Origin: Brachybacterium alimentarium
GTDB lineage: Bacteria; Actinomycetota; Actinomycetes; Actinomycetales; Dermabacteraceae
Direction: 5' to 3'
DNA length: 64,000 bases
NCBI RefSeq assembly: GCF_002332425.1
Contig: NZ_NRGS01000001.1
Span: 1 to 64,000, forward strand
Part shown: positions 42,829 to 64,000 of the stretch, in pieces
How the letters are laid out: each line of letters starts with the position of its first letter
Numbering within the stretch: position 1 is the first letter of the stretch
Made by a program: the position numbers and the translations under genes
The notes under the pieces: generated by a model
Database searches by the model: none
Told to the model about the DNA's origin: nothing
Seen by the model: only the letters and a program-made list of their open reading frames with translations

Positions 42829-45696
<2,868 letters not shown>

Positions 45697-45702
45697 CGGA
45701 CC

Positions 45703-45762
45703 ATCCTACGAGCGGGACACGACATTCGAACCTCTGTTCGTCGGAGACGTAGGCGACATACT
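45703..45762. promoter_or_regulatory. Compact divergent uvrA / MBL promoters
   Basis: Minus strand: -10 TAGGAT (45703-45708), 17-base spacer, -35 position 45726-45731, reading into uvrA. Plus strand: -10 CATACT (45757-45762) with its -35 position at 45734-45739, reading into the MBL gene six bases later. Both transcripts would be leaderless, and both -35 positions fall inside or at the edge of the LexA box. Confidence 0.5.
45727..45740. promoter_or_regulatory. LexA (SOS) box
   Basis: CGAACCTCTGTTCG is a perfect CGAAC-N4-GTTCG palindrome, the LexA operator of actinobacteria and Bacillus. It is centred between the divergent uvrA and MBL genes and overlaps the inferred -35 positions of both. 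Confidence 0.85.
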
Positions 45763-45768
45763 GGGGGC

Positions 45769-46458
45769 ATGACTGAGAACGCCTACACCGGACATGTCGA
45801 ACCCCATGGTGAGAGCGCCGTGCGCTCGATCGGCGGGCTGCAGATCCGCAAGACCTCCGTCGGGCCGATGGACAACAACGCCTACCTGCTGACCTGTCGG
45901 TCGAGCGGGGCCCAGCTGCTGATCGACGCCGCCGCGGAGCCGGACCGGCTGCGGCGGCTGCTCGCCGAGGGCGCCGAGCACGACTGGCTCGACCTCATCG
46001 TCACCACCCATAGCCACCACGACCACATCGGCGCGCTCGAGGAGATGGCCGCTGCCACCGGTGCCCGCACGGCGGCCGGAGCGGAGGACGCGAAGGAGAT
46101 CGCCGCGAAGATCGACCTGCCGCTCTCCCACGGCGACGAGCTGCGGTTCGGGGAGCAGTCGGTGCAGATCATCGCGCTGCGCGGCCACACCCCCGGCTCG
46201 ATCGCCGTGCTGTGGGAGGGCTCGGACGACGACGGCGAGCGCTCCAGCCACCTCTTCACCGGGGATTCGCTGTTCCCCGGAGGGGTGGGGAACACGAACG
46301 AGGATCCGCAGCGCTTCGCGCAGCTGATGGACGACGTCGAGCAGCGGCTGTTCGACGTGCTGCCGGATTCGACCTGGGTGTATCCGGGCCACGGGGACGA
46401 CACCACGCTGGGTGCGGAGCGGCCCTCGCTCGCCCAGTGGCGAGAGCGGGGCTGGTGA
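45769..46458 (+). CDS. Metallo-beta-lactamase-fold hydrolase (glyoxalase II-like)
   Basis: A 229-aa metallo-beta-lactamase superfamily hydrolase with two-metal ligands in 'THSHHDHIGALEE', a distal His in 'LRGHTPGSIAV', Asp in 'FTGDSLFPGG' and His in 'VYPGHGDDTT'. This matches glyoxalase II/YcbL-type thioester or ester hydrolases. It neighbours uvrA in many actinobacteria, mycobacteria included, so the pairing is old. The ATG at 45769 follows a -10 by six bases. The stop overlaps the start of a DNA polymerase-like gene (GTGA), so it may be induced with it by DNA damage. Substrate unknown. Confidence 0.9.
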   Translation: MTENAYTGHVEPHGESAVRSIGGLQIRKTSVGPMDNNAYLLTCRSSGAQLLIDAAAEPDRLRRLLAEGAEHDWLDLIVTTHSHHDHIGALEEMAAATGARTAAGAEDAKEIAAKIDLPLSHGDELRFGEQSVQIIALRGHTPGSIAVLWEGSDDDGERSSHLFTGDSLFPGGVGNTNEDPQRFAQLMDDVEQRLFDVLPDSTWVYPGHGDDTTLGAERPSLAQWRERGW

Positions 46459-48197
46459 CCTCCGACGAGAGGCCCGCCTGGTGCGTCGTCGGCCGAGGCA
46501 CGGGCGGGCGCTGCGCGCTCGTCGAGCTCGATGCGCTGGGTGCACGGCTCCGCGAGGTCGAGATCGAGCCGGAGCGGCTGGCCGACGAGGTGGCGCGCCG
46601 GGAGTCCGCGGTCTCCCCGCGCTGGGTCTGGAGCGACACCCCGACCTGGTACGCCCGTCTCGTCGACGCCGGGGTGACGGTCTCCCGCGGTCATGACCTG
46701 CGCCTGATCCACGTGATCCTGCGTCATTCCGAGATGGTCCGTGAGGCCCGGGCGCTCCGCGAGGCCGTGGACTGGGATGCGCCCATCGACCTGCAGCTCG
46801 AGGACCGCAGCGCCGGGGAGACCCTCTTCGAGCTGGACGCCTCCTCGGCTCGTCCCGGCGGTGTCCCCCACGGCATCGAGGAAGCGCTCACGGAGTTCGC
46901 CCGTCAGCGCGCCGCGATCGACGGCGCCACGGATCCCTCGCGCCTGCGGCTGCTGGTCGCCGCGGAGTCCGCCGGGGGCCTGATCGCGGCCGAGCTGCAC
47001 GCCGCCGGGATCCCCTGGGACGTCGCCGAGCACGACCGGATCCTCGCCGAGTCCCTCGGGCCCCGGCCCTCCCCCGGGCATCCGCCGGCGCGGATGGTGG
47101 AATCCGCCGCCCAGGTGCGGGAGGCCCTGGGCGATCCTCAGCTGAGCCTGGACTCCCCGCCGCGGCTCCTGCGCGCCCTGCACCGCGCCGAGATCGATGT
47201 GGAGTCCACCTCGAAATGGGAGCTGACGCGCTACGACCACCCGGCGATCGAGCCGCTGCTGCGCTACAAGAAGCAGTCCCGCCTGCTCGCCGCGAACGGC
47301 TGGGCATGGCTGGACGAGTGGGTGCACGAGGGTCGCTACCGACCCGTGTACGTGCCTGGCGGCGTCGTCACCGGGCGCTGGGCCAGCAGCGGTGGCGGCG
47401 CGCTGCAGATCCCCCGGCAGCTGCGACCGGCGCTCCGGGCCGACGAGGGCTGGCGCCTGGTGAGCGCGGACGTCGCCCAGCTCGAACCACGGGTGCTCGC
47501 CGCGATGTCCGCCGACACCGCGATGGCGACCGCCGGCGCCGGGAAGGACCTCTATTCGGGGATCGTCGACGCCGGGATCGTCGCCTCCCGCCAGGAGGCC
47601 AAGGTGGGCGTGCTGGGCGCGCTGTACGGCGGCACCACCGGGGACAGCGGCCGGGTGGTCCCGCGGCTGCGGAGGACCTTCCCCGACGCCATGGCCCTGG
47701 TGGACGGCGCCGCCGCCACCGGTGAGCGCGGAGGGACGGTCTCGACCTGGCTGGGTCGTTCCTCCCCCGCTCCCGAGGCGGCCTGGACGCAGGCCCAGAC
47801 CAGTGCGTACCGCCCCGAAGCGTCCTCCGGCGAGCAGGAGCGGGCGCGACGCTCCGCGCGCGATCGTGGCCGCTTCACCCGCAACTTCGTCGTCCAGGGC
47901 ACGGCTGCGGAATGGGCGCTGTCCTGGCTCGCGGCGCTGAGACTCGCGCTGGGGCGCTTCGAACCGGTGGCCCCCGAGGCCGCGGCACCCGCCTCGGGCC
48001 CCGTGTTCGCGCGCCGTGCGCACCTCGCGTTCTTCCTCCACGACGAGGTGATCGTGCATGCGCCGGCTGATCAGGCCGAGGCCGCCGCCGAGGCCATCCG
48101 TGCGACGGCCGACGCTGCGGGACGGCTGCTGTTCCCCGGCAGTCCGGTCGACTTCCCACTGGACCTCACGATCACCGAGCGCTCCCCGGCGTCATAG
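46455..48197 (+). CDS. Stand-alone family-A DNA polymerase (3'-5' exonuclease/polymerase type)
   Basis: A 580-aa protein related to the C-terminal two-thirds of DNA polymerase I, without a 5' nuclease domain. Polymerase motif A is 'SADVAQLEPRVLAAMS' (catalytic Asp339; usual form DYSQIE.R), motif B 'RQEAKVGVLGALYGG' (about 379-392) and motif C 'FLHDEVIVHA' (about 532-541). The N-terminal exonuclease-like region (1-200) lacks a clear DxE motif, so proofreading is doubtful. The family occurs across actinobacteria and is usually annotated as bifunctional 3'-5' exonuclease/DNA polymerase. The GTG start overlaps the MBL stop. Shared SOS control would fit a role in repair or translesion synthesis. 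The true polA is at the right edge. Confidence 0.88.
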   Translation: MTSDERPAWCVVGRGTGGRCALVELDALGARLREVEIEPERLADEVARRESAVSPRWVWSDTPTWYARLVDAGVTVSRGHDLRLIHVILRHSEMVREARALREAVDWDAPIDLQLEDRSAGETLFELDASSARPGGVPHGIEEALTEFARQRAAIDGATDPSRLRLLVAAESAGGLIAAELHAAGIPWDVAEHDRILAESLGPRPSPGHPPARMVESAAQVREALGDPQLSLDSPPRLLRALHRAEIDVESTSKWELTRYDHPAIEPLLRYKKQSRLLAANGWAWLDEWVHEGRYRPVYVPGGVVTGRWASSGGGALQIPRQLRPALRADEGWRLVSADVAQLEPRVLAAMSADTAMATAGAGKDLYSGIVDAGIVASRQEAKVGVLGALYGGTTGDSGRVVPRLRRTFPDAMALVDGAAATGERGGTVSTWLGRSSPAPEAAWTQAQTSAYRPEASSGEQERARRSARDRGRFTRNFVVQGTAAEWALSWLAALRLALGRFEPVAPEAAAPASGPVFARRAHLAFFLHDEVIVHAPADQAEAAAEAIRATADAAGRLLFPGSPVDFPLDLTITERSPAS

Positions 48198-49062: not shown

Positions 49063-49563
49063 ATGCGCCTGTGGACCCTGCACCCCCGTCACCTCGATCG
49101 CCCGGGCCTGACCGGCTGCTGGCGGGAGTCGCTGCTCGCCCAGGCCGTCCTCGCCGGCAGGACCACGGGCTACCGCTCCCACCCTCAGCTCGAGCGGTTC
49201 CGCGCCCAGGAGGACCCGATCGCCGCCGTCGGCGCCTACCTCGAGGCACTTGCCGAGGAAGCCGCCGAGAGGGGCTACCGCTTCGACCGTTCCCGTATCG
49301 ACCGCCCACGCACGGCGGCGGACCAAGGGGCCGCCGGGCATGGGCCCGACGGGCACGGGGACGACGGCGCGCCTGTATCCGTCGGCCGGATCCCGGTGAC
49401 CGAGGGGCAGATCGCGGTGGAGTGGGAGCATCTGCTGCTCAAGCTGTCCCGACGGGACCCTGAGCGCTGGGAGCGGGAGTCCGCCCGCACCGGGCCCGAG
49501 CTGCACCCGCTGTTCGAGGCGGTCCCCGGAGACGTCGAGCCCTGGGAACGCGCCGCGCGGTGA
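49063..49563 (+). CDS. Pyrimidine dimer DNA glycosylase-family protein (Pyr_excise)
   Basis: A 166-aa protein of the MSMEG_6728/Pyr_excise family, related to T4 endonuclease V. The family start is clear: 'MRLWTLHPRHLDRPGLTGCWRE' pattern, then 'LLAQAVLAGRTTGYRSHPQLERF', with the N-terminal part that in endonuclease V holds the catalytic amine and Glu. A Gly/His/Asp-rich insertion (about 92-112) precedes the conserved 'EWEHLLLKLSRRDP'. The ATG at 49063 has GGAGG eight bases upstream. UV-repair neighbours (uvrA, uvrC, uvrB) make a repair role plausible; activity in this bacterial subgroup is not well proven. Confidence 0.8.
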   Translation: MRLWTLHPRHLDRPGLTGCWRESLLAQAVLAGRTTGYRSHPQLERFRAQEDPIAAVGAYLEALAEEAAERGYRFDRSRIDRPRTAADQGAAGHGPDGHGDDGAPVSVGRIPVTEGQIAVEWEHLLLKLSRRDPERWERESARTGPELHPLFEAVPGDVEPWERAAR

Positions 49564-51413: not shown

Positions 51414-53519
<2,106 letters not shown>

Positions 53520-63316: not shown

Positions 63317-64000
63317 TCAGTGAGCCGCTTCGAGCCAGTTCGCTCCGACGCCGATGCCGACCTCGAGCGGCACGGACAGCTCGAAGGCCGACCCCATGCC
63401 CTCGGTGATGACGTCGCGCACGGCCTGGTCCTCGCCGGCGGCGACGTCCACGACGAGCTCATCATGGACCTGGAGCAGCACGCGCGAGGTGAGCTCCTTC
63501 CGGCGCAGCAGCTCGTCGACCCGCAGCATCGCGAGCTTGATGATGTCGGCGGCGCTCCCCTGGATCGGGGAGTTCAGAGCGACGCGCTCGGCGTTCTCCC
63601 GTCGCTGACGGTTGTCCGAGGTGAGATCCGGCAGGTAGCGGCGGCGGCCGAGGATGGTCTCGGTGTAGCCCGTCGCGCGAGCCTTCTCGACGCTCTCGCG
63701 CAGGAAGTCCCGCACCCCGCCGAAGCGTTCGAAGTACCCGTCACGCAGACCGGTGGCCTCGGCCTGCGAGACGCGCAGCTGGCGGGCGAGGCCGAAGGCG
63801 CTGAGGCCGTAGGCGAGCCCGTAGCTGACCGCCTTGGTCTTGGACCGCATCGCGGGATCGACCTCGTCGGGGTCGACGTCGAACACGCGCGAGGCGACGA
63901 AGTTGTGGAGGTCCTCACCGGAGCGGAAGGCCTCGATCAGGCCGGCATCCTCGGACAGGTGCGCCATGATGCGCATCTCGATCTGCGAGTAGTCCGCCGT
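63317..64000 (-). CDS. polA: DNA polymerase I, C-terminal part (cut by window edge)
   Basis: The 3' end of polA; the frame is open to base 64000 and continues outside. The visible 227 residues are the palm and fingers of the polymerase domain: motif A 'ADYSQIEMRIMAHLS' at the edge, motif B 'RSKTKAVSYGLAYGLSAFG' and motif C 'LLQVHDELVVDVA'. 'NSPIQGSAADIIKLAM' is also typical. All catalytic residues here are intact, unlike the variant motif A of the stand-alone polymerase at 46-48 kb. PolA fills repair gaps and removes Okazaki primers. It lies upstream of rpsA, a conserved pairing in actinobacteria. Confidence 0.96.
   Translation of the reverse strand, partial: TADYSQIEMRIMAHLSEDAGLIEAFRSGEDLHNFVASRVFDVDPDEVDPAMRSKTKAVSYGLAYGLSAFGLARQLRVSQAEATGLRDGYFERFGGVRDFLRESVEKARATGYTETILGRRRYLPDLTSDNRQRRENAERVALNSPIQGSAADIIKLAMLRVDELLRRKELTSRVLLQVHDELVVDVAAGEDQAVRDVITEGMGSAFELSVPLEVGIGVGANWLEAAH

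Follow-up and report, generated by a model that had tools for sequence, protein, structure and literature searches.

The uvrA-MBL-APEX locus

In Brachybacterium alimentarium, a gene for a second family-A DNA polymerase lies immediately behind a gene for a metallo-beta-lactamase-fold (MBL) hydrolase, and uvrA is transcribed divergently from this pair. The locus was analysed in a window of 64,000 nucleotides, i.e. positions 1 to 64,000 of the forward strand of contig NZ_NRGS01000001.1 (NCBI RefSeq assembly GCF_002332425.1), and the polymerase, called APEX or PolA2, was compared with its relatives in other genomes. The features of the locus are listed in Table 1.

The polymerase matches NCBIfam NF011538 over its full length (711 bits, cut-off 389), and its sole Pfam domain is DNA_pol_A (PF00476, score 63.8, cut-off 34.3). 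The Pfam scan found no fused FEN domain of the kind present in Pol I (PolA1), and PolA is encoded by a separate gene. The genome contains one NF011538-type gene besides the ordinary polA. The original prediction, a note written from the DNA letters alone, had described this open reading frame with its motifs A and C, all of which read as described; the start codon is GTG. The closest named relatives are proteins of Brachybacterium species (67-85% identity), and a copy is present in 36 of 38 Brachybacterium genomes, including the one analysed here. The window protein falls into the same family as proteins of f23 (numbers of this kind denote families of the genome search) that carry a published sequence, QSSLF, at position 120, and we infer that NF011538 corresponds to the PolA2 group. 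Judged from its sequence, the reading frame is a real gene and a member of the already described actinobacterial APEX/PolA2 group.

According to PMC12926913, the group is confined to Actinobacteria, its exonuclease is inactive, and low-fidelity synthesis is suggested. The cellular role is called unestablished there, and mutagenic repair is inferred from the numbers of Y-family polymerases; the paper credits the name APEX to a 2023 article in Nucleic Acids Research (reference 31). The protein side is thus already published and the enzyme is not new; what the present sequence analysis adds is regulatory evidence. A literature search, whose reach did not extend to Gamulin et al. 2004 and the 2023 naming paper, yielded no paper that joins APEX/PolA2 with PafBC, RecA-NDp or LexA control, and neither PafBC nor LexA nor a promoter is mentioned in the main text of the 2026 survey.

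Three observations concern the family at large. A divergent group of 21 relatives (L187-L207), 30-38% identical, scores under the NF011538 cut-off; the gene starts are uncertain and need re-annotation. One Brachybacterium genome (G011) contains two APEX genes (L135 and L140), one of them near uvrA-MBL. A record labelled Planococcus sp. APC 4015 (L051) holds a Microbacterium-like APEX with 62% identity to the window protein, and the label is probably wrong.

Table 1. Positions of genes, motifs and sites in the window (nucleotide 1 is the first of the 64,000)
Feature	Position	Strand	Remarks
uvrA	42829-45696	-	TIGR00630, 1474 bits; divergent from the MBL-polymerase pair
LexA/SOS-box-like palindrome TCGAACCTCTGTTCGT	45726-45741	.	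between uvrA and the MBL-polymerase pair
MBL-fold hydrolase	45769-46458	+	Lactamase_B, glyoxalase-II-like; 4-base overlap (GTGA) with the polymerase start
APEX/PolA2 family-A DNA polymerase	46455-48197	+	580 aa, GTG start; from NF011538, Pfam and predicted fold
Vestigial DnaQ-like 3'-5' exonuclease fold	46473-46856	+	about residues 7-134; from the model; no conserved DEDD set
Clamp-motif-like GETLF	46815-46829	+	residues 121-125, within disordered loop 112-134; retains LF but not the Gln of QxxLF
Polymerase motif A	47469-47492	+	D339-VAQLEPR; from alignment
Polymerase motif B (O-helix)	47589-47630	+	R379...K383...L387...Y391-G392; L387 where E. coli has F762
Polymerase motif C	48039-48047	+	H529-D530-E531; from alignment
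Pyrimidine-dimer DNA glycosylase-like gene	49063-49563	+	Pfam Pyr_excise, E 3.5e-20; just downstream of APEX
uvrB	51414-53519		named from its sequence
polA (ordinary PolA, 896 aa)	63317-64000	-	at the window edge, and in L223

An SOS-box-like site in the uvrA-MBL divergon

The uvrA and MBL genes are 72 bp apart, and this gap holds the SOS-box-like palindrome. The palindrome has one mismatch to the SOS box and is the sole site in the window with one mismatch or fewer; with up to three mismatches allowed, 52 sites are found in the window versus 31.5 expected. In the whole genome, 22 places have at most one mismatch, compared with 2 for the reversed pattern. According to their flanks, they include recA, lexA with a YneA-like LysM gene, ImuA', ruvA, and a radical-SAM gene of the Rv2578c family, as would be expected of a working SOS regulon. 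The flank scans covered these sites, and several of the 22 show no evident repair gene. A perfect palindrome lies shortly before the likely start of the Rv2578c-family gene (L208:1501-1516, G000 C10:3087-3102). Two overlapping perfect palindromes are found at the ImuA' gene (L209/L210, G000 C43:38607-38634), near which a Y-family-like domain, probably ImuB, is located (C43:37047-37418).

The position of the site is conserved in part of the genus. TCGAAC-N4-GTTCG is present at the same place, in gaps of about 72 bp, in 21 of the 31 intergenic regions compared, including that of the window. The box is centred in the gap and lies less than 30 bp from both start codons, and all 21 box-bearing sequences have kept a CATACTG block by the MBL start that resembles a -10 hexamer. 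The overlap of the MBL and APEX genes recurs in most Brachybacterium loci. The SOS control that had been assumed originally stands in one respect, i.e. an SOS-type box is present upstream; however, uvrA shares the divergent promoter that contains the box, and the box may be uvrA's.

An alternative is that the box serves uvrA only, that the MBL-APEX promoter is free of LexA, and that APEX is not SOS-regulated in this genus. Several findings speak for this and thus weigh against LexA control of APEX. The box is missing in 10 of the 31 intergenic regions, and 7 of these 10 genomes keep the MBL-APEX overlap. In a relative (G019), the box is present between uvrA and MBL although APEX lies elsewhere, so that the box may have been placed for uvrA and probably served uvrA-MBL first. 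LexA control of uvrA has been reported in Streptomyces (PMC9380542). Nevertheless, we regard the alternative as unlikely, because LexA bound less than 30 bp from both starts in such a short gap should cover both promoters, and the invariant CATACTG block beside the MBL start also argues against it. The simplest history would be an old uvrA-MBL divergon that acquired a box in part of the genus and behind which APEX was placed later.

The overlap of the two genes could also be taken to mean that MBL and APEX form a dedicated repair pair, in which MBL processes an end or an adduct before synthesis. We consider this improbable. Among 19 uvrA loci of several families, 12 have an MBL relative beside uvrA, also where APEX is not there, which makes uvrA the older partner, and the MBL protein is small and glyoxalase-II-like.

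Six loci of family f21 (L153, L164, L169, L170, L171, and L174) contain TCGAAC-CCCC-G(C/G)TCGA upstream of APEX. These palindromes were discounted as independent SOS control, because they fall within the end of the preceding gene's coding sequence (peptide ...QE(L/I)EPP(L/V)EDEV..., in our reading).

PafBC-type promoter elements upstream of APEX genes

The PafBC motif has been printed as TGTCGG, TGTCAG or TGTCAC, followed by N10 and TANNNT (PMC8151990). We searched for TGTC(GG/AG/AC)-N10-(T/C/G)ANNNT with an in-frame start codon 5-8 nt behind it, i.e. the first base of the -10 element was loosened from the printed T. The expression had been shaped after viewing upstream sequences of other families, in which TGTC(A/G)G...ANNNT directly preceded the start codon, and was then found to match the printed motif except for this base; the later tests comprised a hold-out of 40 further genomes, drawn from families already represented in the first set, and 80 named loci.

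In the first set, the element precedes APEX in 36 of the 68 loci outside Brachybacterium that score over the NF011538 cut-off, and the start codon is always 6 or 7 nt behind it. The fractions differ between the families, with 20/25 in f23, 3/3 in f24, 5/16 in f21, 2/2 in f36, 1/3 in f29, 1/10 in f5, 0/3 in f2, and 4/6 in f10, f41, f8, f40, and f30 together. In the hold-out, the element was found in 26 of the 40 genomes, in all 26 again followed by an in-frame start codon after 6 or 7 nt (15/15 in f24, 4/4 in f23, 7/11 in f21, 0/9 in f29, and 0/1 in f5), and a search of the other strand over these 8,913 bases yielded no match. Four f21 loci of the hold-out (L319, L320, L321, and L327) have a second match further upstream without a start codon, which was not counted as an extra locus. 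Even the exact printed motif precedes APEX in 14 of the 80 named loci, i.e. in 11 of 14 from Leucobacter, 2 of 21 from Brevibacterium, and one from an unassigned actinomycete. The regulatory evidence is thus repeated, at the level of sequence motifs, on the later sets.

With the looser -10 base, 6 of 16 genomes, the present one among them, also have the element upstream of recA, and 11 of 19 have it upstream of uvrA. This genome encodes two adjacent WYL domains in one frame, which suggests a fused PafBC.

A number of results count against a general PafBC control of APEX. The element, also in its looser form, is absent from all 36 Brachybacterium loci including the window, and it is missing in all three f2 loci and in all nine f29 loci of the hold-out. 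The exact motif was found in none of the 26 Microbacterium and none of the 15 Brachybacterium loci among the 80. Outside the Leucobacter-like loci, the first -10 base is usually C or G where T is printed. Among the 21 divergent relatives, one or two loci have the element, with the gene starts being uncertain. In addition, the mycobacterial motif is apparently not conserved in S. venezuelae according to an initial search (PMC9380542). Within Brachybacterium, strain SGAir0954, in which APEX is not beside MBL, has a form of the element with one mismatch.

Polymerase and exonuclease sites

The profile alignment to the E. coli Klenow fragment spans about residues 228-573, and motif A, the O-helix, and HDE all align. 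Residue conservation was counted on 124 aligned members, i.e. 126 proteins without the fragments L147 and L148. D339, R379, K383, Y391, H529, D530, and E531 are invariant (124/124), and position 387, which is Phe762 in E. coli, is occupied by Leu in 122 members and by Ile in the other 2. The residues of the polymerase site are thus intact. In motif A, Q342, P345, and R346 are likewise found in 124/124 members and E344 in 123/124. The originally noted contrast between DVAQLEPR and DYSQIEMR is real; the latter belongs to polA, a minus-strand gene at the right edge of the window. However, the altered motif is not special to this gene; DxxQxEPR is a signature of the family and says nothing specific.

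An AlphaFold2 model based on 46 sequences has a mean pLDDT (predicted local distance difference test) of 87 and a pTM (predicted template modelling score) of 0.86, and is confident except for residues 1-3, 112-134, and 305-316. Its residues 6-580 superpose on residues 348-928 of Klenow (1kfs, Z 22.5), and it superposes over its whole length on the Taq large fragment (3po5, Z 24.3). As the model aligns end to end with both large fragments, the exonuclease fold is predicted to be present in APEX.

An active DEDDy site needs four carboxylates. Within residues 1-200, an acidic residue is found in at least 95% of the 124 members only at D81, E171, and E180, and the latter two lie in a helix that we assign to the polymerase part; no conserved set of four carboxylates exists in this region across the 124 members. 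For the exonuclease residues, the judgement was based on conservation and on the order of secondary structures, since the sequence alignment of this domain to Klenow failed with MAFFT and hhalign, which weakens the case. The catalytic carboxylates of the exonuclease seem to be lost, and with them the centre for 3'-5' proofreading. The missing exonuclease motif of the original prediction is borne out by the family alignment. Of the comparison with the Klenow exonuclease that it had proposed, the structural part revealed a Klenow-like fold, and the conclusion on the carboxylates rests on conservation.

The sequence AESA (residues 170-173) was considered as exonuclease motif III and dropped, as helix 161-184 fits better to the start of the polymerase part. 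Its Ser172 is invariant in 124/124 members; it was first taken for a lost catalytic Asp, and this reading was also abandoned.

The name of NF011538, "bifunctional 3'-5' exonuclease/DNA polymerase", states that the protein still proofreads, and the Klenow-like fold through the exonuclease domain is in accord with this. Given the lack of four conserved carboxylates in residues 1-200 and the inactive exonuclease reported in PMC12926913, we regard proofreading by APEX as very improbable.

The clamp-motif loop

For APEX/PolA2, PMC12926913 describes an unstructured loop that carries a clamp motif, QxxLF (120-QSSLF-124 in S. coelicolor); this motif is a reported feature of the group and not a part of the clade definition. 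The published QSSLF was found at position 120 in many relatives of family f23. The window protein does not have a strict QxxLF, and the site in the loop reads GETLF. The Gln is present in 25/25 proteins of f23 and 11/16 of f21, and absent in 35/35 of Brachybacterium and 10/10 of f5. L124 of the loop is found in 124/124 members, and F125 in 102 of the 103 members over the cut-off. Among the 21 divergent relatives, 8 have QLDLL at this site, which we take to be closer to the classical clamp motif.

Proposed role of APEX

Together, these results make it rather likely that APEX production rises with DNA damage in many lineages, by means of a LexA box in the organism studied here and of a PafBC-type promoter elsewhere, and that the enzyme carries out synthesis without proofreading. 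Upon DNA damage, RecA-stimulated cleavage of LexA would clear the box between uvrA and MBL-APEX, so that UvrA and MBL-APEX would be made together, and APEX would be translated from the start codon that overlaps the MBL stop codon. In many other actinobacteria, APEX would be expressed as a leaderless message from its own RecA-independent promoter of the PafBC type. Its task would be gap filling during repair or primer extension beyond lesions, and the xxxLF loop may tether it to the sliding clamp.

The original prediction had connected the loss of proofreading with error-prone or bypass synthesis. Taken alone, this loss is weak evidence, because in PolA of this strain a DxE can likewise not be read at the position of exonuclease motif I, and substitutions alter the exonuclease motif in about half of the PolA1 proteins (PMC12926913). 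The strain may therefore have no proofreading family-A polymerase at all. Missing proofreading would then be the rule here, and APEX could be a plain gap-filling polymerase of excision repair whose mutagenicity does not exceed that of Pol I. The neighbourhood fits with this, as uvrA, APEX, the pyrimidine-dimer glycosylase gene, and uvrB all lie within 11 kb; furthermore, ImuA' and two Y-family-like genes are already available for bypass in this genome. A second Klenow-like enzyme would, however, be redundant with PolA. We hold plain gap filling possible, but less likely than the induced synthesis outlined above; as to the task itself, APEX may serve either mutagenic bypass or plain gap filling.

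A wider reading, to which we give even chances, is that APEX is as a rule an enzyme of the damage response, normally switched by PafBC and translated from a leaderless message. One Brachybacterium clade would have moved it behind MBL into the LexA-controlled uvrA divergon, its control passing from RecA-independent to RecA-dependent; the Gln of the clamp motif would have been lost in several lineages, with LF being kept. If true, one and the same polymerase would have exchanged PafBC for LexA, which would make it a clean example of how regulons are rewired within the DNA-damage response of actinobacteria. Damage-type promoters at APEX in many families would place the enzyme in a defined pathway and predict when a phenotype should be sought.

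Comparison with known systems

The Klenow and Taq large fragments share with APEX the overall fold (Z 22-24) and the catalytic residues of the polymerase, at 19-26% identity in the structural alignments. APEX differs from them in having DxxQxEPR, Leu in place of Phe762, and no conserved exonuclease carboxylates. NF011538 is matched over the full length, whereas the exonuclease claimed in its name is unsupported by this sequence.

Many APEX genes share the upstream element TGTC(G/A)G-N10-(T/C/G)ANNNT with mycobacterial PafBC/RecA-NDp genes. In contrast, it was not found at the Brachybacterium APEX genes, except for the one-mismatch form in the species with APEX away from MBL.

The window protein agrees with APEX/PolA2 as described in PMC12926913 in its actinobacterial origin, the absence of FEN, a vestigial exonuclease, an intact polymerase site, and xxxLF in a disordered loop. 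It differs in that the Gln of QxxLF is replaced, as in all 35 Brachybacterium proteins compared, and its gene sits in the uvrA-MBL divergon with an SOS box. As in genes of the LexA/SOS regulon, this box lies in the promoter, with one mismatch and at a position conserved in the genus.
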